From: Acidobacteriota bacterium
Lineage (GTDB): Bacteria; Acidobacteriota; Vicinamibacteria; Vicinamibacterales; 2-12-FULL-66-21
Length of the DNA stretch: 52,659 nucleotides
Direction: 5' to 3'
NCBI GenBank assembly: GCA_003222675.1
Contig: QHWT01000070.1
Span: 24,514-77,172 of the forward strand
Shown: in pieces, positions 9,879 to 50,083 of the stretch
Numbering within the stretch: the first letter of the stretch is position 1
Layout: every line of letters starts with the position of its first letter
Made by a program: the position numbers and the translations under genes
Notes under the pieces: model-generated
Databases searched by the model: none
Told to the model about the DNA's origin: nothing
The model's input: the letters and a program-made list of their open reading frames with translations, nothing else

Positions 9879-9888
9879 AATCCTCGCC

Positions 9889-16394: not shown

Positions 16395-17522
16395 ATGATT
16401 CCAATGCCGAAGGACCGCCGCGGCTTCCTGCAGCGCCTGTTCGCTGCCGGCACTGTGGCTGCCGCAGTGCCCGCGGGAACGGATGCGCAAGTCCCGACCA
16501 GCGAAGCGTCTTTCCTGCCCCCATACGCCCGCGCTCAGAACTACAAGTCTCTGAAGCAATCGAGTTACGACAGGACGGGCGGCAATGGCGACCGATGGCC
16601 GATCGCGGCCGGTGGAGTGCAGGAAGTCTTCAAGGCGAGTGGCCCTGGGGTCATCACCCACATCTGGTTCACGATCGCCGCACAGAGCGGCGATCATCTG
16701 AAGGAAATCGTCCTGCGTGGCTATTGGGACGACAACGCGAAGCCGAGCGTCGAAGTTCCTGTCGGGGATTTCTTCGGACTCAATCTCGGGAGCTACCAGA
16801 TCTACCAGTCGCAGTACCTCGCGTGTTCGCCGGGCAAATCGTTGAACTGTTATTTTTCGATGCCGTACAAGCGCGCGGCGCGTTTCACGGTGACCAACGA
16901 GGGCAGCCGTGAAGTCGGCGCTTTCTATTCGAACATCGATTACATCAGCGTGCCACGCCTCCCGGACGACACGGTGTACTTCCACGCGCAGTATCGGCAG
17001 AGCGCGCCATCGACGCCGGTGACCGGCACTCCGCCCATGCTGAATCCCGACGGCAAGCAGAACTACGTCTACATGGAAACGCGCGGCCGCGGTCACTTGA
17101 TGGGCGTCACGCTCGGTGTGCTGCAGAACGCGAACGGCTGGTGGGGCGAAGGAGACGACATGATCTTCGTCGACGATGATTCGAAGCCGGCGATCGTCGG
17201 GACCGGAAGCGAGGACTATTTCCTTGGCAGCTGGAATTTCGGCGGCCGCGAGGGAGCGACGGCGTTCGGTCACGCGATGTACGGCGCGCCGCTCATCGTC
17301 AACCCCGAGCGCACCGGCGGCCGGTACTGCTGCTACCGGTGGCACGGCGACAATCCGGTCACCTTCGAGCGTTCGCTGAAGCACACGATGGAGCACGGCC
17401 ATGCCAACGATCGCGGCGACAATTTCTTTTCCGCCGCGTACTGGTATCAGACCGCGCCGTTCACGGATTTCCCATCGCTGCCGCCCGTCGCGGATCGCAT
17501 TCCGCGGGTGAAGACGCCATAG
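16395..17522 (+). CDS. DUF2961 (GH172-type) secreted glycoside hydrolase
   Basis: A 375-residue protein with a Tat-like leader (DRRGFLQRLFAAGTVAAAV) and a DUF2961 body. Markers are GPGVITHIWFTIA, LRGYWDDNAKPSVEVPVGDFFG, the hallmark GTGSEDYF near residue 273 and RWHGDNPVTFERSLK. DUF2961 is the catalytic module of family GH172, which acts on furanose-containing glycans such as fructans and arabinans, with an acidic residue in the GTGxEDYF region. The substrate here cannot be chosen. It is last in the run and ends at the edge of a long inverted repeat. Confidence 0.85.
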   Translation: MIPMPKDRRGFLQRLFAAGTVAAAVPAGTDAQVPTSEASFLPPYARAQNYKSLKQSSYDRTGGNGDRWPIAAGGVQEVFKASGPGVITHIWFTIAAQSGDHLKEIVLRGYWDDNAKPSVEVPVGDFFGLNLGSYQIYQSQYLACSPGKSLNCYFSMPYKRAARFTVTNEGSREVGAFYSNIDYISVPRLPDDTVYFHAQYRQSAPSTPVTGTPPMLNPDGKQNYVYMETRGRGHLMGVTLGVLQNANGWWGEGDDMIFVDDDSKPAIVGTGSEDYFLGSWNFGGREGATAFGHAMYGAPLIVNPERTGGRYCCYRWHGDNPVTFERSLKHTMEHGHANDRGDNFFSAAYWYQTAPFTDFPSLPPVADRIPRVKTP

Positions 17523-17523
17523 T

Positions 17524-17655
17524 GAATCGTTAATCCCTGATCCCTGATCCGGCATCCCTGATCGTCGATCCTGGATCATCGATCCTTGATCCCTGATCGA
17601 TAATGGCGGATCGTGGATGAGGGATGCCGGATCAGGGAGTAGGGATTAACGATTC
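17524..17655. repeat. Long hairpin built of 7-bp words (atccctg type)
   Basis: An inverted repeat between convergent genes. Bases 17524-17538 pair exactly with 17641-17655 (15 bp), and after a 2-base mismatch 17541-17559 pair exactly with 17620-17638 (19 bp). From 17534 the whole tract steps in 7-base units each starting with 'at' or a near variant (atccctg, atccctg, atccggc, atccctg, atcgtcg, atcctgg, atcatcg, atccttg, atccctg and so on), for 16 units. It probably ends transcription in both directions. It has no U-tract, so intrinsic termination is not proven. Confidence 0.9.
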
Positions 17656-19043
17656 CTTCGATGCAGCCACACGCTGTCGACGAGCGGGCCGGGCGCGTTG
17701 CGCACCGTGGCGATGATGGCCTGGCGCGACTGCTCGAACGGTAAGCCGATCGCACTCGTCACCTCGCCGACCAGCGGGCGCGGCTCGTTGTGCAGGAACG
17801 CACCCCCCGGCGTCAGCATGCTGGCGATGTTGCCGAGCGCCAGCGTCAATTCCACGTCATCGAAGTAAGGAAGGATGTTCGTCGCGATGACGAGATCGAA
17901 TGCGGGTCCATGGAGACGCTCGGTCACGACGTCGAGACGCTCAGCGCGCAAGGCGCCGGCGGCCGCCTGGCGGATTCGCACGGTCTTGCGCAAACTGCCG
18001 TTCGCGCCCTCGACGTCGGCGGCGTCTCCGACGGCGCGTCCGAGGCGCGCGAAATACTCAACGTACTCCGGCGAGAACTTCACGTTCGCGTCCTCTCGAA
18101 TGCCGCTGACCAGCGTCAGCGTCGGAGGCTCGGTGCGCGAGCGCCGCAGATGATCCACGACCCGCGGGTTGATGTCCGCTCCCACCACCTCGAGATCGTC
18201 GGCGCGTGAAAGGCCGAGGGCGACGAGCGCATCCATCACCGCCCACGGCTGGTAACTTTCCGGCGGCGCCACTTCGAGCAGTGCCGTTCGCGGCGCGAGA
18301 TCGAGACCCGGGCCGACGATCAGCACGCGGCGAATGGCTCGATCGGGGTCGAGAGACTTGATGACGCCGAGGCCGAGATAGACGACGTATCCCGCTTCGA
18401 CCGCGGTGTCGGTGCTGAGGCCGCGGCTTCGATACAATTGGGCAACCGCGTCGCTGGCGTCGATGGCGCGCTCGGCCACGAATTCCTTTTCATACAGAAA
18501 CCGCATCGCGCGCAGGTATTCACCGAGCAGCGCCTGTTCGCGCACACTATGGTCCGGGAACGTCGATTTCACGAGCGCGCGGAAGTACGCAATGCGGGCA
18601 TCCGTGCCGGAAGAATCCAGGGCGCGGATGAAGGCTGTCATGCGCGATCGAACCGCCGCGGGAATTCTGGCGCGCGGCGCCTCCGACGTGCGGAGAAACG
18701 TGTCGCGCTCTCCGTCCGGTAAACCGTCGACGAGCGCTTTCGCGCTGAGGGCCGGCTCAATCGATGGAAGCGTCGTGAAGCGCGTCGATTGCAGCGCGTA
18801 GAAAACGAGATGGTCGAGGTCTCCTTCACGCACGCGACGAGCGTTGGACTGATGGATTCCCTCGAGGTACGACGGAAACGTGCGCGACGTGATGCCGCGG
18901 GCTTCGAGCCGCGCCCGCAGCGCGGGAACGATATCGTCCCAGGTGATGCGGGCCGTGGTCGACGTGGGCTGAGCGGCGATGACGGCGCAGCCCAGGATGA
19001 GGGCTGCGCCAATCGAGAGAGTGTGAGAGCGCAAACGATTCAC
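17646..19043 (-). CDS. Exported protein with SAM-methyltransferase-like domain
   Basis: A 465-residue protein with a signal peptide (SIGAALILGCAVIAAQP). Its N-terminal helical region has no recognised domain, and from about residue 235 it has a class I methyltransferase-like fold: RRVLIVGPGLDLAPRTALLEV (motif I), DLEVVGADINPRV (motif II acidic), FDLVIATNILPYFDDVELTLALGNIASMLTPGGAFLHNE (motifs IV-V). The second half looks like CheR or small-molecule methyltransferases, but export to the periplasm would separate it from SAM. Either the leader is a membrane anchor with the domain cytoplasmic, or the fold has another use. The start is GTG 19043. Confidence 0.7.
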   Translation of the reverse strand: MNRLRSHTLSIGAALILGCAVIAAQPTSTTARITWDDIVPALRARLEARGITSRTFPSYLEGIHQSNARRVREGDLDHLVFYALQSTRFTTLPSIEPALSAKALVDGLPDGERDTFLRTSEAPRARIPAAVRSRMTAFIRALDSSGTDARIAYFRALVKSTFPDHSVREQALLGEYLRAMRFLYEKEFVAERAIDASDAVAQLYRSRGLSTDTAVEAGYVVYLGLGVIKSLDPDRAIRRVLIVGPGLDLAPRTALLEVAPPESYQPWAVMDALVALGLSRADDLEVVGADINPRVVDHLRRSRTEPPTLTLVSGIREDANVKFSPEYVEYFARLGRAVGDAADVEGANGSLRKTVRIRQAAAGALRAERLDVVTERLHGPAFDLVIATNILPYFDDVELTLALGNIASMLTPGGAFLHNEPRPLVGEVTSAIGLPFEQSRQAIIATVRNAPGPLVDSVWLHRRNR

Positions 19044-28075: not shown

Positions 28076-28360
28076 ATGAGGCTGCTCAGAAGACGGTTGG
28101 CGTGTTCGTTCTGCGGCAAGCCCGATTCCGAGGTTGCCAAGCTCGTCGCCGGACCGCGGGTCTTCATTTGCGACGCGTGCGTCGCGATCGCGCAGCGCCT
28201 GATGGATGAGACCGGAGACACCACGCCGTCTCAGAACGTTCGAGGCGGCGGTCTTCTTCAGCGGATCGTCGTTCGCATCCGTGCCGCAGTGCGGGGCGTC
28301 AGCGACTCCCGGATGACGCAGCCGGCTCCAGCTCGCGCAGCCAGATATTCCGAAAACTAA
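28076..28360 (+). CDS. ClpX C4-type zinc-finger protein
   Basis: A 94-residue protein consisting of a stand-alone ClpX-type zinc finger. CSFCGKP and [16 protein letters not shown] supply four cysteines spaced C-x2-C-x18-C-x2-C, as in the N-terminus of the ClpX unfoldase. No AAA+ domain follows, so it may bind adaptors or substrates of Clp. The C-terminal 45 residues are basic and disordered-looking. A strong purine-rich ribosome site (gggggagggg) precedes ATG 28076. The last 60 bases overlap the end of the convergent DUF1080 gene. Confidence 0.82.
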
Positions 28361-29147
28361 TCGGCTGGCTCGGGTCGCCGTGGGCCTGCAGCTTGATCGG
28401 CGCCTCGTCGTACTTCTTGTATTGCGGCTTGCCGATGTAAACCGTTTCTCCTTTCACCTCGGAGTGGTTCTGAATCAGCACGCCGTTGTGAAGTGCGGTC
28501 ACGTAGGCGGGCGTTTTCACCGATCCATCCGCGTTGAACGCCGGCATCGTCCAGACCACGTCATAGGTCTGCCACTCGCCCGGCTTGCGCATGGCATTCA
28601 CGAGCGGGGCGTACTGCTTGTAGATGCTCCCGGCCTGCCCGTTCACATACGTCTTGTTGTTGTACGAGTCGAGGATCTGCAGCTCGTAGCCGCCATCGCC
28701 GCTCCCCGTTGATGCGAGGAACAATCCGCTGTTGCCACGCGCCTGATCGGTTCCCGTGATATCCGGCGGAATGCGCCATTCGAGGTGCAGCTGGTAGTTC
28801 TTGAAGCTGCGCTTCGTTTCGATGTTGCCAGCCTGCTTGTTGACGGTGATGACGCCGTTGGCGACGGTCCACGTCGCCGGCGACTTGTCTTTCGTCGATA
28901 CCCACTGATCGAGGTTGCTGCCGTCGAACAGCACGATCGCATCCGAGGGCGGCGCGCCCTCCGTCGCGGCTGGTGTAATCACTTTGGGCACCGGCTCCCA
29001 GACTTCCGTGTCTTTGGGATTGCCCCGCGGCGGCGTCTGCGCGGCCGACTGCGCGGTTGGGTTCTGCAGCGGTGGATTCTGCTCGGCGACGACCGGCAGC
29101 GCGAAGAGGGTAGTAACGACGAGCGTAACCGACAGGTGAGTTCGCAT
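28299..29147 (-). CDS. Secreted DUF1080 protein
   Basis: A 282-residue exported jelly-roll protein of the 3-keto-disaccharide hydrolase (DUF1080) family. A signal peptide ([16 protein letters not shown]) is followed by a proline/glutamine-rich linker, then the domain from about residue 75: [90 protein letters not shown] and [13 protein letters not shown] 29147 is chosen because translation from further upstream would cross the gaaccgt repeat. It has one domain, unlike the two-domain relative at 15462. Confidence 0.87.
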
Positions 29148-29217
29148 GACGAAGGCCTCGTTTCGGTAGAGATCGGCGGATTGTGTGGCGCGCTCGGCTT
29201 CCCTGTCAACCGCCCCC

Positions 29218-29330
29218 GAACCGTGAACCGTGAACCGCGAACCGTGAACCGTGAACCGTGAACCGTGAACCGCGAACCGCGAACCGTGAACCGCGAACCC
29301 GTGAACCGTGAACCGTGAACCGTGAACCGT
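29218..29330. repeat. Heptanucleotide tandem array, 16 copies of gaaccgt/gaaccgc
   Basis: Sixteen consecutive units of gaaccgt or gaaccgc, with a single 8-base unit (gaacccgt), cover 113 bp of the divergent spacer between the DUF1080 and deaminase genes. Only the sixth base slot varies (t or c). No spacers occur, so it is not a CRISPR. It resembles the 7-bp words in the other intergenic hairpins but has only one arm here. Confidence 0.95.
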
Positions 29331-29354
29331 CGATCGTGAGAAGATGACGCGGAT

Positions 29355-29795
29355 ATGACCGATGCCTTCCTGCGGGCGGCGATTGACGAAGCGCAAACCG
29401 GCGCGCGCGAGGGAGGGATCCCCATCGGGTCCGTGCTGGTTCATGACGGCCGGATCATCGGCCGCGGCCACAACCGGCGCGTGCAGCAGGCGAGCGCCGT
29501 GCTGCATGGCGAGATGGACGCGCTCGAGAAGGCCGGACGGCAGGCGGCGCGCGTGTATCGCGCATCGATCCTCTATACGACGTTATCCCCCTGCGCGATG
29601 TGCAGCGGCGCGATCCTTCTTTACGGGATCCCAAGGGTGATCGTCGGCGAGAACCAGACGTTCATGGGAGAGGAAGCGCTCCTGCGATCGCGGGGTGTGG
29701 CCGTCGAGGTCCTGCAGGACGAGACGTGCATACGTCTCATGACGGAATTCATCCACGCGCACCCGGAGCTCTGGCGCGAGGACATCAGCGTGTGA
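29355..29795 (+). CDS. Cytosine deaminase-like nucleoside deaminase (yeast FCY1 type)
   Basis: A 146-residue zinc deaminase. The catalytic motifs are HGEMD (His51, Glu53) and [33 protein letters not shown] (Cys80, Cys83), with an ending [17 protein letters not shown]. The spacing, the C-A-M-C and Y-G-I-P segments and the W-x-E-D-I ending match the small fungal cytosine deaminase FCY1 better than TadA, which needs a different loop. It should convert cytosine to uracil; relatives use guanine or nucleosides. The gene begins just after the heptad array. Confidence 0.85.
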
Positions 29796-31703: not shown

Positions 31704-31763
31704 GCCGCGCGCGTGGATCCCGCGGAGGTGTCGCACCGGCAGGCGCAGCTTGGACCGTTGAGC

Positions 31764-31819
31764 ATCGCACATCGCACATCGCGCCTCGCACGTCGCGCCT
31801 CGAACCTCGGCCTTCGGCT
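31764..31819. repeat. Degenerate heptad tract atcgcac/ctcgcac
   Basis: Eight consecutive 7-base units: atcgcac, atcgcac, atcgcgc, ctcgcac, gtcgcgc, ctcgaac, ctcggcc, ttcggct. It is a one-armed tract 36 bases before the DUF3500 start. The rest of the 320-bp gap (31536-31855) holds the hairpin described separately and no gene. Confidence 0.75.
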
Positions 31820-34895: not shown

Positions 34896-35381
34896 TCCGT
34901 TGGATCCCGCTGCTCGCCGTCGCCCGGCGCTCCGAAGGCGAGCCAGCATGGGTCGGTGTCTCAGCACGTCGGCAACACCGTGATCACGATCGAGTACAAC
35001 CGGCCCGTCGCCCGCGGGCGTGACCTGTTCGGAGCGCTGGTGCCGTGGGGCCGCGTGTGGACGCCCGGCGCGGACTATGCGACGACTATTGAGGTATCCA
35101 CACCGGTGCAGATCGAGCGGCAAGCCCTCCCGGCCGGCACCTACTCGCTCTGGACGGAGCCACAGCAGGATCGCTGGACGGTGATCTTCAACCGTGTGCA
35201 GCCGGTGTTTCATACGCGATATCCGGCGGGCGAGGACGTTTTGCGCGTGACGGCGACGCCGCGTGAAGGCATGCACATGGAAACGCTCGCCTTCTACTTT
35301 CCAAAGGTCGATGGCAAGCACGCGGAGCTGGTCCTTCACTGGGGAAAGACAATCGTTCCGCTGGAGATCGAGGTGCCGTGA
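34892..35381 (+). pseudogene. DUF2911 protein, frameshifted in its signal peptide
   Basis: ATG 34892 (overlapping the previous stop as ATGA) opens MIRWIPLLAVA, a start of a signal peptide, but that frame then goes wrong. The mature DUF2911 sequence (APKASQHGSVSQHVGNTVITIEYNRP, FGALVPWGRVWTPGADYATTIE, LPAGTYSLWTEPQQDRWTVIFN, LVLHWGKTIVPLEIEVP) begins in the next frame near 34929. A deletion not divisible by three near 34925 would explain it. The only in-frame start left is GTG 34956 without a leader. Sequencing error is possible. DUF2911 is a small secreted beta-sandwich of unknown role. Confidence 0.75.
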
Positions 35382-36478
35382 TCCGGACTCGCGTGTGGGG
35401 CCCCTTCTGCACGATCGTCTTGGTGTGCGCGCTGTCGTCGGCCGCGCCGGCGCAGAATGCCGCGCGCGAGCAGTCCGCGTTTGCCGGGCAGATTGCCGCG
35501 CTCTCGGAAGCGGGCGGCTACTTCGATACCGACAATCTCATCTCGAACGAGTCGTCGTACCTGCAGGTGATCCCGGAGCTGCAGCGGCGAGGCGTGCACG
35601 GCGGCGCCTATATCGGCGTCGGTCCCGATCAGAACTTCACCTACATCGCGGAAGTCCGTCCCGCGATCGCGTTCATCATCGACATCCGCCGCGACAACAT
35701 GCTGCTGCACCTGTTCTTCAAGGCGCTGTTCCAGTTGTCGCGCACCCGTCAGGACTACCTCTCGATGCTGTTCGGCCGTCGAGTGCCCGCGGTTGCCGGA
35801 AGATGGGCGCGCGAGGCCGACATCGAGGATCTCGTGAAGGAGACGGATGCGCGCTCCGTCGATTCGGCCGATATGGCCGCCGTCCGCGTGCGCGTGTCGC
35901 TGGCGCTCAAGAAGATGGGCGTGCCGCTTTCAGACGAGGACATCGCGACGATTAGCCGGTTCCACGCGCGCTTCGTCGAGGCCGGCCTGTCGCTCCGTTT
36001 CCAGAGCGCCGGCCGTCCGCCGCAGAGTCACTATCCGACGTACCGGCAGTTGCTGCTCGACACGGATCCGTCGGGACGACACACCAACTTCCTGGCATCA
36101 GAAGAATCCTTCCAGTTCCTGAAGTCCCTGCAGGCGCAGGATCGCATCATTCCAGTCGTCGGCGACTTGAGCGGACCGTCTGCGCTGGCGGCCATCGGAC
36201 GCGTAATCGGCTTGCGGCGCGAGCTGCTCTCCGCCTTCTACGTGTCTAACGTCGAGTTCTACCTGTTTCGTGAGGGGAGCTTCCCCAGGTTCGTGGCCAA
36301 CCTGGGCCGCGTGCCGCGCCAGAAGAACAGCGTGCTGATTCGATCGATTTTCGACTACGGCTTCTCGCGCGCCCGCCCGAGCGACGGCAGCGCGTCGCGC
36401 CTCCACGCGATCGATGATCTCCTCGCCAACTTCTCCGCGGGCCGAATCCAGCACTATGGGGACCTGATCTCGCCGTAG
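35378..36478 (+). CDS. Secreted LIC_10091-like protein
   Basis: A 366-residue protein with a signal peptide (PFCTIVLVCALSSAAPAQ). The segments FDTDNLISNESSYLQVIPEL, GVHGGAYIGVGPDQNFTYIAEVRPAIAFIIDIRRDNMLLHLFFKALFQLS, QSHYPTYRQLLLDTDPSGRHTNFLASEESFQFLK and AFYVSNVEFYLF match what I recall of the LIC_10091 family, a methyltransferase-like fold of unknown function first seen in Leptospira. The family name comes from memory and is unverified. GTG 35378 overlaps the DUF2911 stop. Together with the exported protein at 17646 it is a second periplasmic protein with methyltransferase-like features. Confidence 0.65.
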   Translation: MIRTRVWGPFCTIVLVCALSSAAPAQNAAREQSAFAGQIAALSEAGGYFDTDNLISNESSYLQVIPELQRRGVHGGAYIGVGPDQNFTYIAEVRPAIAFIIDIRRDNMLLHLFFKALFQLSRTRQDYLSMLFGRRVPAVAGRWAREADIEDLVKETDARSVDSADMAAVRVRVSLALKKMGVPLSDEDIATISRFHARFVEAGLSLRFQSAGRPPQSHYPTYRQLLLDTDPSGRHTNFLASEESFQFLKSLQAQDRIIPVVGDLSGPSALAAIGRVIGLRRELLSAFYVSNVEFYLFREGSFPRFVANLGRVPRQKNSVLIRSIFDYGFSRARPSDGSASRLHAIDDLLANFSAGRIQHYGDLISP

Positions 36479-36480
36479 AT

Positions 36481-36595
36481 GTCCGAGGTCCGAGGTCCGA
36501 GGTCCGAGGTCCGGGGTCAGGGGTTCGCCGTTCGATATAGCCCGAGGGTCGAGCGCGAGACTCGGGCCTCGGATCTCGGACCTCGGACCTCGACG
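36481..36595. repeat. Hairpin of gtccgag heptads
   Basis: The left arm is a 7-bp tandem: gtccgag four times from 36481, then gtccggg and gtcaggg. The right arm is ctcgggc, ctcggat, ctcggac, ctcggac, ctcgacg from 36561 to 36595. Since ctcggac is the reverse complement of gtccgag, the arms pair in register. It fills the space between convergent genes and probably acts on transcript ends. Its closest analogues are 17524-17655 and 51762-51829. Confidence 0.9.
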
Positions 36596-36598
36596 GTC

Positions 36599-38335
36599 CT
36601 ATCCTTCCCATCCATTGATGATGGTTTCGCGCAGATCGAAGCCGAACGCGCGTTCGCTGACGACGACAATGGGTGGGCCCTGGAGCCGCTTGTAGACGGA
36701 GCGGCGCATTCGGCGGTGCGCGTCATAGACGATCGTGCGGAATGTTTCCCGCGTGTATTTGTCGTAGACCGTGAGCCCCTGGTCGTCCGGCCCGAAACGT
36801 GTCGGATCGAGCGCGTGCTGCTCGAATAACCGGATCAGATCCGCGGGGCTGGTCCGGTGTTCCGCGAATTCGCCCACGATCGGCGAAACGACGGCGTAAT
36901 CGAACGGATCGCACTGTCCTGCCGCGAGCTCGGCGGATGGTTTGATGTGGAACGTGTCCTCCGGGATCATCTCCCGCCCGTGCATGCTGTTCACGTAGCG
37001 GGCCACGCTGTATACATCCATTTTCGACAGGTCGCCGATGAGCGAGATCCCGCCGCACATGTCGCCGTACAGCGTGGCGTATCCGAGCGCGATCTCCGTC
37101 TCGTTGCCGCACGAGATGAGCAGCGCCCCCGTGTCGTTCGATTCAGCCATCATCAGCAGTCCGCGGATGCGGGCGTGCAGGTTCTCGCGCGTGAGATTCT
37201 GCGCGATCGGGTGGGCGCATCCCTCGAACACGCTGCGCACCTTCTCGTCGATCTCCTGGATCGGGACGGTGCCGTAGCGCACGCCGAAGGCGCCGGCCAG
37301 CCGTGCCGCGATCCCTCTCGTCGTCTCGCTGTTGTAGCGTGACGGCAGGTTGTAGGCGAGCACGCGATCCGCGCCCAGCGCGTCCACCGTGAGTGCCAGC
37401 GCGAGTGCGGAATCGATACCGCCGGAAACAGGGACGATCGCGCGCGTGAAGCCGGTCTTGCGCATGTAGTCCCGCAGCGTCATGACGAGCGCGTCGTGCA
37501 GCTCGCGGACCCGATCGTCGCGCGGCAGCTCGACCTCCGGCAGCGGCCCGCCGGCCGCCTCGAGGTCGACGACGAGAAGGTCCTCGTCGAACTGCCGCCC
37601 GACCGCGACCAGCCGTCCGGCGGCGTCGTAAACGAGGCTCTCGCCGTCGAATGGGATGATGTTCTTCCCGGTGTCCGCGGCGCCGACGGTGTTCACGTAC
37701 ACAATCGGGCGATGGAACTGAGCGATGTGCCCGCGGATCAGCCGCTCGCGCGTGTGGCGCTTGCCCGGATGGAACGGCGACGCGTTCAGGTTGAGGAGCA
37801 CGCTCGCCCCCTTCGCCACCAGCTCCGGCAGCGGCTTGATCTCGTAGAACTCGTCCCACATGTCTTCACAAATCGAGACGCCGATGCGCGCACACGTGGA
37901 CCCGACGGCGACATCGATCGGATCGCGCCGTTCCCCCGGCGTGAAGAACCGCTTGTCGTCGAAATAGCGGTAGTTGGGGAGCAGCGACTTGCGCGCCCGC
38001 TGCAGCACGTTTCCGTCGCGCACGACCGCGGCCGCGTTGTACTTGCGGATCGTGCCGTTGTCATTTCTGGCGGCGGGATCGAAGTCGATGAAGCCGACCA
38101 CGGCGGTAATGCCGCGCGCGGCCTGTGCGATCTCCTGCATCGCGCGCTCGTTGGCGTCGAGAAACCCGGCATCCTCGACCAGATCGCCGATGCAGTAGCC
38201 GGGGAGCGCCATTTCCGGCACCACGACGAGATCGGCGCGTTCTCTCCTCGCTGCCGTGAGCGCATCGAGGATGCGCTCCGTGTTATGACGGATGTCGCCG
38301 CTGGTCGGATTGATTTGGGCTAACGCGATTCGCAT
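36599..38335 (-). CDS. nadE: Glutamine-dependent NAD synthetase
   Basis: A 578-residue two-domain enzyme that makes NAD from nicotinic acid adenine dinucleotide, ATP and glutamine. Residues 1-270 are a nitrilase-type amidotransferase with its triad at Glu41 (VVVPEMALPG), Lys116 (RARKSLLPNY) and Cys156 (GVSICEDMW), which releases ammonia. Residues 290-578 are the synthetase, with the ATP P-loop VSGGIDSALALAL and the segments ISCGNETEIALGY, TLYGDMCGGISLIGDLSK and MIPEDTFHIKPSAEL. ATG 38335 gives the family length. An upstream run of three ggttgac words sits directly in front of the start. With the NadR fusion, the window has two independent NAD-making steps. Confidence 0.95.
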   Translation of the reverse strand: MRIALAQINPTSGDIRHNTERILDALTAARRERADLVVVPEMALPGYCIGDLVEDAGFLDANERAMQEIAQAARGITAVVGFIDFDPAARNDNGTIRKYNAAAVVRDGNVLQRARKSLLPNYRYFDDKRFFTPGERRDPIDVAVGSTCARIGVSICEDMWDEFYEIKPLPELVAKGASVLLNLNASPFHPGKRHTRERLIRGHIAQFHRPIVYVNTVGAADTGKNIIPFDGESLVYDAAGRLVAVGRQFDEDLLVVDLEAAGGPLPEVELPRDDRVRELHDALVMTLRDYMRKTGFTRAIVPVSGGIDSALALALTVDALGADRVLAYNLPSRYNSETTRGIAARLAGAFGVRYGTVPIQEIDEKVRSVFEGCAHPIAQNLTRENLHARIRGLLMMAESNDTGALLISCGNETEIALGYATLYGDMCGGISLIGDLSKMDVYSVARYVNSMHGREMIPEDTFHIKPSAELAAGQCDPFDYAVVSPIVGEFAEHRTSPADLIRLFEQHALDPTRFGPDDQGLTVYDKYTRETFRTIVYDAHRRMRRSVYKRLQGPPIVVVSERAFGFDLRETIINGWEG

Positions 38336-38336
38336 C

Positions 38337-38357
38337 GGTTGACGGTTGACGGTTGAC
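38337..38357. repeat. Three ggttgac heptads before nadE
   Basis: ggttgac occurs three times head to tail (38337-38343, 38344-38350, 38351-38357) immediately upstream of the nadE ATG on the opposite strand, replacing any normal Shine-Dalgarno. It is a short one-armed example of the word tracts. A second direct repeat, cttgtgaaatcggg, occurs twice near 38470-38510. Confidence 0.8.
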
Positions 38358-38508
38358 GGATCACACCATCGTAGCGCACGCGTAGTCTGCGGCAGATTCG
38401 TGGCACGTGTGAAAAGACCAAGGCCGCGCTGCAATTGGCCTGTTCTGGTCCTACACTGGAAACCTGCTATCCGTGTTTTGTGAAATCGGGGTCTTGTGAA
38501 ATCGGGTT

Positions 38509-38567
38509 CGTAGCGCAGCCCTTCAGGGCTGCTCGTGGCGCGAGCAGGGCTGAAGCCCTGCGCTACG
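38509..38567. repeat. Palindrome of cgtagcgcag type
   Basis: Left arm 38509-38535 and right arm 38541-38567 share exact outer pairing (cgtagcgcag/ctgcgctacg and gctcg/cgagc), with small self-complementary blocks (cccttcaggg, gggctgaagccc) between. The loop is five bases. It is related to 27961-28036 and lies 30 bases before the dioxygenase start. Confidence 0.8.
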
Positions 38568-38597
38568 GCTTGCCTGACGAGAGAGGACGCGCAAGCG

Positions 38598-39323
38598 ATG
38601 AAAAGGGAAGATCGGAGAGACGTCACGCGACGCGACATGCTGGGGGTCTTCACGGCCGCCGTTGGCGCGGCGTTCATGGGTTGCGGATCAAGTCCAACGA
38701 GCCCCAGCACGAGCAGCGGCACCAGCACATCGACCGGTGGCACGACGTCCGGCGCGTGTGCCGCGACGCCGTCGGAGACCGCGGGCCCGTATCCCGATCG
38801 CACCGGCATGATCAACGGCGCGACCTACTATCGACAGGACGTCACCGAGGGGAAGCTCGGCCTGCCGCTGACGCTGGCGTTGACGGTCGTCAACGTGAAC
38901 AACGCGTGCAGCCCGATCGCGAATGCGACGGTGGAGATCTGGCACTGCGATGCGGCGGGGAACTACTCGGAGTACGGCAACTCGACCGGGCAGACGTTTC
39001 TCCGCGGCCTGCAGCGATCGGATGCGGACGGCAAGGTCACCTTCAACACCGTCTACCCGGGTTGGTACGCCGGCCGCGCCACCCACATCCACCTCGAGGT
39101 GTTCGTGAACGGGGCCAGCGTGAAGACCACGCAGATGGCCTTCCCCGACGACATCACGACCGGCGTGTATGCGACGGATGTCTACGCATCGCGCGGCAAC
39201 AACCCGACGCGCACCAGCGCCGACGGCATCTTCGCGGACGGCACCACGAACGAGCTGGCCACGATGAGCGGCAGCACGTCGAGCGGCTACACGGCCATGC
39301 TGCAATTGGGTGTGGCTGTCTAA
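38598..39323 (+). CDS. Intradiol ring-cleavage dioxygenase-like lipoprotein
   Basis: A 241-residue protein. A Tat-like leader carries RRDMLGVFTAAVGAAFMGCGS, with Cys as a lipid anchor, followed by a Ser/Thr-rich linker and an intradiol dioxygenase-type beta sandwich. Iron-ligand residues are visible: Tyr in TAGPYPD, Tyr in GWYAGR and the two His in ATHIHLEV. The family opens catechols; secreted members of this type are little studied and may act on plant phenolics. ATG 38598 is chosen to start the leader; an upstream in-frame extension would cross the palindrome. Confidence 0.8.
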   Translation: MKREDRRDVTRRDMLGVFTAAVGAAFMGCGSSPTSPSTSSGTSTSTGGTTSGACAATPSETAGPYPDRTGMINGATYYRQDVTEGKLGLPLTLALTVVNVNNACSPIANATVEIWHCDAAGNYSEYGNSTGQTFLRGLQRSDADGKVTFNTVYPGWYAGRATHIHLEVFVNGASVKTTQMAFPDDITTGVYATDVYASRGNNPTRTSADGIFADGTTNELATMSGSTSSGYTAMLQLGVAV

Positions 39324-42931: not shown

Positions 42932-43064
42932 TCCATCCTCCCGGGCGGGATACTAACACCAAGGCGGTGCGGACCGAGAACGCCGAGATGGAGAACGACG
43001 AAGGTAACGGATGGAGAACGACGAAGGTAACGGATGGAGAACGACGAAGGTAACGGATTTCACA

Positions 43065-49990: not shown

Positions 49991-50083
49991 CCACGGATTA
50001 CACGGACTACACGGATTACACGGACTACACGGATCACACGGATCACACGGATCAGATCCGTGCCCCTTCCGTGTAATCAGTGG
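49991..50083. repeat. 9-bp word tract acggattac with closing arm
   Basis: Seven 9-base units (acggattac, acggactac, acggattac, acggactac, acggatcac twice, acggatcag) run from 49993 to 50055. The beginning (49991-50006, ccacggattacacgga) pairs with 50068-50083 at 14 of 16 positions. It begins directly after the serine hydrolase stop, so it may serve as its transcript end. Confidence 0.85.

Follow-up and report, generated by a model that had tools for sequence, protein, structure and literature searches.

The question raised by this locus is why the gap between two convergent protein genes should be filled by a long palindrome written in repeated short words. The palindrome lies at 17524-17655 of the window, by which we mean the whole stretch of 52,659 nt that was analysed, and is the best gapless 132-nt palindrome found there. 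The coordinates in the initial annotation were right: 54 of the 66 positions are in Watson-Crick pairs, and the two stems of 15 and 19 bp described around a 2-base mismatch were recovered as 15 pairs, a G.T plus one mismatch, and 19 pairs, beyond which the inner stem is imperfect. A repeat search placed the arms at 17524-17584 and 17595-17655 (85% complementary, 10 nt between them). When 17515-17665 was folded, the check suggested at the outset, it gave -53.2 kcal/mol as DNA (z -10.8) and -92.5 kcal/mol as RNA (z -11.1), values equalled by none of 200 shuffles in either case; the palindrome folds far better than shuffles in both forms (z about -11).

The key clue had also been seen correctly, namely that the palindrome is made of 7-bp words. 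From 17525 onwards it consists of consecutive RATCNNN heptads in which AT occupies positions 2-3 in 18 of 19 units, so that the reported 'at' phase every 7 bases, loop included, holds; the count of sixteen units was too low, as 18-19 heptads are present. The features of the locus are as follows.

17525-17654, no strand assigned: palindromic heptad element of 130 nt with family terminus AATCG..., gene-less (17524 and 17655 pair too).
17525-17559, plus strand: left terminus, 35 nt in five conserved heptads (AATCGTT, AATCCCT, GATCCCT, GATCCGG, CATCCCT).
17620-17654, minus strand: right terminus, five heptads on the opposite strand with 3 mismatches to the pattern.
17560-17619, no strand assigned: variable interior of heptads with phased ATC and a free triplet, including the hairpin loop at 17585-17594.
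16395-17522, plus strand: upstream neighbour, DUF2961 protein (PF11175), stop 2 nt short of the element.
17646-19043, minus strand: convergent neighbour, weak methyltransferase-like match, end inside the element.
17646-17648, minus strand: TAA stop of that convergent gene, supplied by the element (AAT CGT TAA, read as N, R, stop).

The overlap with a gene stop that had been claimed is real, the TAA of the minus-strand gene sitting in the right arm. The name methyltransferase-like given to that gene has a match behind it but a weak one (28.3 bits, Pfam cut-off 30), and its N-terminus looked signal-like by eye. The protein has a match in 7 of 30 relatives and none in the same-genus genome (88% complete), and in the two closest relatives (G014 and G009, 58-59% identity) no DUF2961 gene accompanies it within the 1.5 kb read. 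In G009, another half array of short words was seen by eye after the methyltransferase-like gene.

Other repeats occur in the window. A second heptad palindrome at 36468-36598 (GTCCGAG five times, then CTCGGAC four to five times) is the next best separate one, with 41 of 66 positions paired around a centre at 36534, and it likewise lies in a gap of convergent frames, a DUF7790 gene (35378-36478) and an NAD synthase-like gene (36599-38815). About 16 tandem copies of GAACCGT at 29209-29341 lie in the N-terminal frame part of a 3-keto-disaccharide hydrolase-like gene (28299-29507, minus strand), whose true start may lie lower; the word is that of an S23 element described below (L032) and has no inverted partner within 1 kb. 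Short arrays at 31753-31803, 38336-38359 and 49992-50052 use CATCGCA, CGGTTGA and the 9-nt CACGGATTA, a 56-nt unit is present in 2.5 copies at the window start (1-139), and a perfect 23-nt unit in 3.1 copies at 42987-43058.

Searching the source genome with the 261-nt region around the palindrome gave 60 matches. The pattern of the outer 35 nt matched this genome 32 times at up to 3 mismatches (reversed control, 0), and none of the 11 other searched genomes of the family at the same threshold. In a directly read sample of 441,668 nt, consisting of the window and 20 stretches picked around matches, 34 ends at 24 loci lie within 6 mismatches of what we call the AATC family; in another set of 27 sites, a few have as many as 8 mismatches and probably represent inner registers. 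The copies have a sharp outer boundary. Inwards, conservation of heptad positions 5-7 extends over the first five units and falls off at the sixth, with mean information going from 1.62 bits (unit 5) to 0.58 (unit 6) and 0.22 (unit 7), while ATC at positions 2-4 stays high (1.83, 1.41 and 1.20 bits in units 6-8). These ends were chosen on the five units themselves, which biases these values. If units 1-2 alone decide the ends, the values are 1.06, 0.87 and 0.84 for units 3-5 and 0.34 and 0.14 for units 6-7; if units 4-5 alone decide them, units 1-3 have 0.47, 0.78 and 0.86 and units 6-7 0.38 and 0.14, the contrast being weaker at unit 1. Because triplet conservation ends after unit 5 and ATC persists, a copy can be described as two terminal signatures of about 35 nt with a phased-ATC interior between them. 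In that interior the phased ATC is kept while the rest drifts, as if something touched every seventh base. A related AATCCCT family with slightly different termini occurs in a genome of another genus (G009, L079-L082).

We compared six AATC elements with relatives having alignable flanking genes. In all 13 comparisons, over six junctions, the AATC terminus is absent from the relative's gap: the nearest match has 12-18 mismatches, random pieces of the relatives have a median of 17 and a minimum of 12, and copies within the source genome have 0-4. For one element (L011, 9644-9804) two relatives offer clean empty sites, with 12 nt (G011) and 9 nt (G009) between the flanks; all other compared gaps hold other sequence. 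In two of them, inverted arms made of other words are clear (scores of 67 at the L008 junction in G001 and 106 at the L011 12712 junction in G002), one holds a RAYT-type repeat (L010 junction in G011, score 41), and at the L008 junction in G009 the arms are borderline (29, against the 28 that 5% of random pieces reach). A further array suspected in G001 at the L011 9644 junction, inverted and of a different word, was discarded, its arm score of 25 being short of that level. Lineage-specific presence of the AATC copies is well supported. No target-site duplication was detected in 14 copies, the longest direct repeat averaging 0.93 nt for a copy's own flanks and 0.81 nt for mismatched ones.

Rearrangements were seen at some of these places. 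Near L010 (1733-3066, contig C126 of the source genome, set against L076 and L077), G009 carries one gene in the opposite orientation, and heptad palindromes of the source genome mark the two break points. The inversion in G001 spans a longer block and has a single break point at such a palindrome. Heptad palindromes may serve as inversion points.

One AATC copy carries a gene. At C126:209906-210868, AATC-family ends enclose 963 nt with an S23/23S_rRNA_IVP frame (PF05635, 1.7e-14; for this copy the Pfam search covered the S23 frame alone). The protein is divergent (55.6 bits; no PDB match at 0.01), and at the corresponding junction (L012) G011 is without the next 1.9 kb as well. This is the only one of the 24 AATC-family loci with an S23 gene; the copy at 17524-17655 is gene-less. 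We found eight PF05635 genes in the source genome, and all eight lie between inverted short-word arrays, each of a different word (by eye AGGAGCT, CCAGCTT, GCGGGGT, GAAGCCC, GAACCGT, GAGAACC, GATCCCT and the 8-nt GGGGAATC). The inverted-flank score, a local alignment of the upstream 500 nt with the reverse complement of the downstream 500 nt, ranges from 36 to 109 for these genes, and 0.53% of 3000 random places in the genome reach 36. Heptad arrays as such are frequent, with 37 arrays at lag 7 and 0-6 at those lags from 4 to 30 that are not multiples of 7. In the directly read sample, 37 of 59 heptad arrays are within one letter of an S23 word (19% expected for random words), although sampling had centred on the AATC family, to which 13 of the 37 belong; the other 22 match none of the eight words.

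We then asked how far this arrangement extends. PF05635 is present in at least 80 of 120 genomes of the order. From these we fetched 37 loci (8 from the source genome and 29 others) and used 32 (8 and 24), dropping five with short flanks. Lag-7 arrays occur in 23 of the 32, against 0, 0, 4, 1 and 0 for lags 5, 6, 8, 9 and 10, and the true flank pair ranked first among 32 at 20 loci. A scan of named genomes, from which the best 80 of at least 563 relatives were taken, reached Chloroflexota, Nitrospirota, Bacteroidota, Planctomycetota, Acidobacteriota, Verrucomicrobiota, Clostridia, Treponema and CPR bacteria. After three loci were dropped, the true pair was best of 77 in 45 of 77 cases. Among the 59 named loci of full length (80 minus 21), 51 score at least 30 and 25 at least 40, whereas displaced controls from the same loci do so in 1 and 0 of 118 cases. 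On plasmids (12 of the 24 records with S23), 11 of 12 loci score at least 30, against 9 of 132 mismatched pairs, and 11 of 12 rank first. The association of S23 genes with inverted short-word arrays is strongly supported, and the rule looks general across the bacteria sampled; 21 of 109 S23 loci are without inverted flanks scoring at least 30. A search of 50,697 phage records with one S23 query gave no match at 1e-5.

The 88 loci with clear arms, that is, all but those 21, share further properties. The best period is 7 or 14 in 56, 8 in 16, another value in 3 and below threshold in 13. Read inwards, G outnumbers C in the arms of 80 of these 88 loci, and C outnumbers G in 7; the AATC family is an exception, running C-rich inwards (24 G and 66 C in the arms of L034). 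Words are shared by 24 of 76 S23 pairs with at least 60% identity and by 0.5-4.2% in lower identity bands, and word and protein distances give a Mantel correlation of 0.099 that none of 999 permutations reached (8 of the 80 named loci and 5 order loci, all with short flanks, were left out of this comparison). Word sharing may come in part or mostly from common descent of whole elements, with some cases across phyla (Nitrospirae L139, Desulfobacteraceae L152, KSB1 L157).

The plasmid loci also bear on the neighbours of S23 genes. Four of them (L175, L182, L180 and L179) lie between cas6 and cas4 (two plasmids), between cas10 and cmr3, and between two ribonucleotide reductase genes, and their flanks form inverted short-word arms, with L180 scoring 29, slightly below the threshold. 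Eighteen S23 genes in cas loci are mentioned in the available text of PMC3936711. As plasmid S23 genes sit between cas genes and between ribonucleotide reductase genes, the cas association may reflect insertion at gene junctions, and S23 genes in cas loci may be insertions rather than cas partners.

We propose that the palindrome at 17524-17655 is a gene-less ('solo'), MITE-like copy of an S23-associated, mobile-like element, copied in trans and placed at a gene end; we put the probability of this reading at about 0.62. In its complete form the element would carry a small gene for a four-helix-bundle protein of the S23/IVP kind (PF05635), bordered on one side by an array of one 7-nt word and on the other by that array in inverted orientation. 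The sequence evidence for this reading consists of the sharp, conserved inverted ends of the dispersed family, the S23 gene inside one of its copies, the enclosure of most sampled S23 genes by inverted short-word arrays, the lack of the copies at matching junctions of relatives, and the stop codons beside roughly half of the family's ends. We infer both the mobility of the element and a part of S23 in it. To our knowledge, no nuclease or transposase motif is known in S23. In the mechanism that we envisage, an S23 pentamer would bind heptads of its own word in the hairpin, as DNA or as transcribed RNA, and would, with host enzymes or another partner, generate further copies, which would settle at the ends of genes; those without a gene would be moved in trans, as MITEs or REPINs are. 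Joining to DNA could proceed through a retro-route like that of Avd, or alternatively through host repair of replication hairpins. RNase III would cleave read-through transcripts at the hairpin, in the manner known from 23S rRNA intervening sequences, and insertion at gene ends would then be nearly harmless. The conserved five-heptad end would be the part held by the pentamer. Two solved S23 relatives, PDB entries 2gsc and 2rld, have five chains each, and the Xanthomonas S23 protein is a homopentamer according to the portion of PMC4990558 available to us. The match between five heptads per arm end and one heptad per pentamer subunit is, for the moment, numerology. A broader proposal, to which we give somewhat less than even odds, is that S23/IVP proteins act as pentamers that bind nucleic acid word-specifically, every one of them paired with a 7- or 8-nt word of its own, and that they would drive palindromic elements across bacteria. 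Such elements would comprise inverted arrays around the gene and numerous gene-less copies served in trans and settled at the ends of genes, the 23S rRNA intervening sequences being their landings in rRNA.

A different origin would be local growth, in which heptad microsatellites expand by slippage and become palindromic via template switching, S23 genes tolerating them or landing in them. The interiors do differ among copies, 7-nt arrays are common in this genome, and unit expansion is visible inside some copies, as in L021, where about ten near-identical 13-nt units start at 9887, and in L080. We nevertheless consider this origin unlikely, because conserved 35-nt termini with sharp outer edges recur at 24 loci, two relatives have clean empty sites, the S23 association is found in many phyla, and the arms have an inward polarity. 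The initial annotation had suggested growth by whole words, from the period kept in both arms. Among the 14 copies with both ends found, AT phase runs through the centre only in the palindrome at 17524-17655 (18 of 19 units); twelve short copies keep it in 6-13 units of 17-34, and the gene-carrying one in 26 of 138. Since this copy alone keeps an unbroken phase, the phase is a property of that copy and not a growth rule; growth by whole words is unsupported, and the locus belongs to a dispersed family whose 35-nt ends are conserved.

Two further observations concern the arms. In L080, from G009, some 400 nt of 13-14-nt unit expansion occupy one arm, and a terminator-like central hairpin was seen by eye. 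Arms within one element match each other weakly better than they match arms of other copies (interior p 0.02, no preference at the termini); we rejected arm-by-arm co-evolution as proof of hairpin selection, as the signal is weak and confined to the interior.

The palindrome could instead be a structure kept by the host between convergent genes, such as a bidirectional terminator, an RNase III site or a nucleoid-protein site, with S23 a host regulator that binds it. The hairpin is strong, and at 18 of the 34 AATC-family ends a long coding-like frame runs in and stops between -56 and +20 nt from the end, and these ends abut stop codons, compared with a stop in the same range at 6.3% of 8400 random places. 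By this stop test no gene runs into the remaining 16 ends. At one copy (L008 9919) the upstream gene ends in ...DLDQALG followed by an element-derived AAT CGC TAA, and three relatives have their own stops. The ATC phase outlasts the free triplets, as repeated protein contact would demand, and similar five-heptad sites of Geobacter metallireducens are filed as putative IHF/HU sites in the text available from PMC2700814. Against such a role, no intrinsic terminator was found in 17300-17900, with no terminator-like T run after the hairpin, relatives have no AATC copy at the corresponding junctions, and S23 is carried inside arrays and found in rRNA as well. We therefore regard a host-kept structure as improbable. 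We also tried the idea that inward words are rich in stops in three frames and so end neighbour genes quickly; with 44 loci for and 31 against (p 0.17) it was not supported, the named loci alone giving 33 against 17 (p 0.03).

A REP/REPIN palindrome moved by a RAYT, a Y1 HUH transposase, would also be palindromic, extragenic and dispersed with one partner gene per family, and two Y1_Tnp matches are present in the source genome. Each of these Y1 genes (L172 and L173) is flanked by a separate inverted repeat, GTGACAGTCACAGTT and GGGGTCAGACCCC by eye, with no 7-nt period and with inverted-flank scores of 58 and 57; within 900 nt of them the nearest sequence to an AATC terminus has 14-15 mismatches over 33 fixed letters, and the gene inside the AATC family is S23, not Y1. 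A RAYT origin is on these grounds very unlikely. Two systems coexist in the genome, one of Y1 genes and their repeats and one of AATC palindromes and S23. The L172 repeat was also seen by eye in the same-genus G011 (L075 site A), at a place where the source genome has an AATC palindrome.

Chance or an assembly artefact can practically be dismissed, given the fold (z -10.8, none of 200 shuffles) and the recurrence of the same termini at 24 loci with different neighbours, which makes an artefact unlikely.

If our reading of the palindrome as a solo copy of an S23-associated element is correct, two things described apart, the S23 protein known from 23S rRNA inserts and heptameric intergenic repeats treated as G-quadruplex or regulator sites, would be joined as one element that occurs in numerous phyla, on plasmids as well as chromosomes, and both at junctions within operons and inside rRNA. 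In the mainly open-access literature searched, we found no paper linking S23 genes in general to inverted heptad arrays. Our results suggest a widespread, largely overlooked kind of mobile-like element. The orphan S23 protein would gain a candidate role, binding its own word, and a second REPIN-RAYT-like system would be offered for studying how gene-less repeats persist.

Several known systems invite comparison. REPIN-RAYT systems consist of many extragenic, palindromic, gene-less copies and a few with a small partner gene, with one partner per family; their partner is a Y1 transposase, whereas that of the AATC family is S23. As in MITEs, terminal inverted repeats and dispersed copies are found, although target-site duplication is not, and tandem 7-nt units in intergenic DNA place the locus among intergenic heptameric SSRs. 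Avd of diversity-generating retroelements is a relative of S23, PF05635 (2GSC) and Avd (4DWL) being homologous in the available text of PMC10053308.

The intervening sequences of 23S rRNA share a plan in which terminal inverted repeats enclose an S23 gene and pair into one hairpin. In Coxiella burnetii, the accessible part of PMC4990558 describes a 28-bp stem, two or three tandem heptamers ahead of the S23 ORF, and RNase III excision from the transcript in vitro. On plasmid p2 of Azospirillum lipoferum 4B (L183), we found an S23 match inside a large-subunit rRNA gene (RF02541, 1350 bits), flanked by inverted heptads of type CAGAGGACGGATGA. The palindrome also has terminal inverted repeats folding into one long hairpin. 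The intervening sequences sit in rRNA, whereas the palindrome is gene-less, belongs to a multi-copy family and lies between two convergent protein genes, with no Rfam match anywhere in the window at gathering scores; it is therefore not a classical intervening sequence and has only the same build.

Xanthomonas GGGAATC heptamers likewise form intergenic arrays, two genomes containing 70 and 75 of them as close inverted pairs (Rehm et al. 2015, PMC4692102); the portion of that paper available to us treats them as G-quadruplex repeats not generally tied to mobile elements and contains no link to S23. Class 3 'global regulator sites' of Geobacter metallireducens, 15 of 16 of which are five tandem heptanucleotides with a strand-switching loop, are discussed as putative IHF/HU sites in the available text of PMC2700814, which names no partner gene. 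Their arms have the five-heptad length of the AATC termini, and these heptad quintets would fit the proposal that one pentamer holds five heptads.
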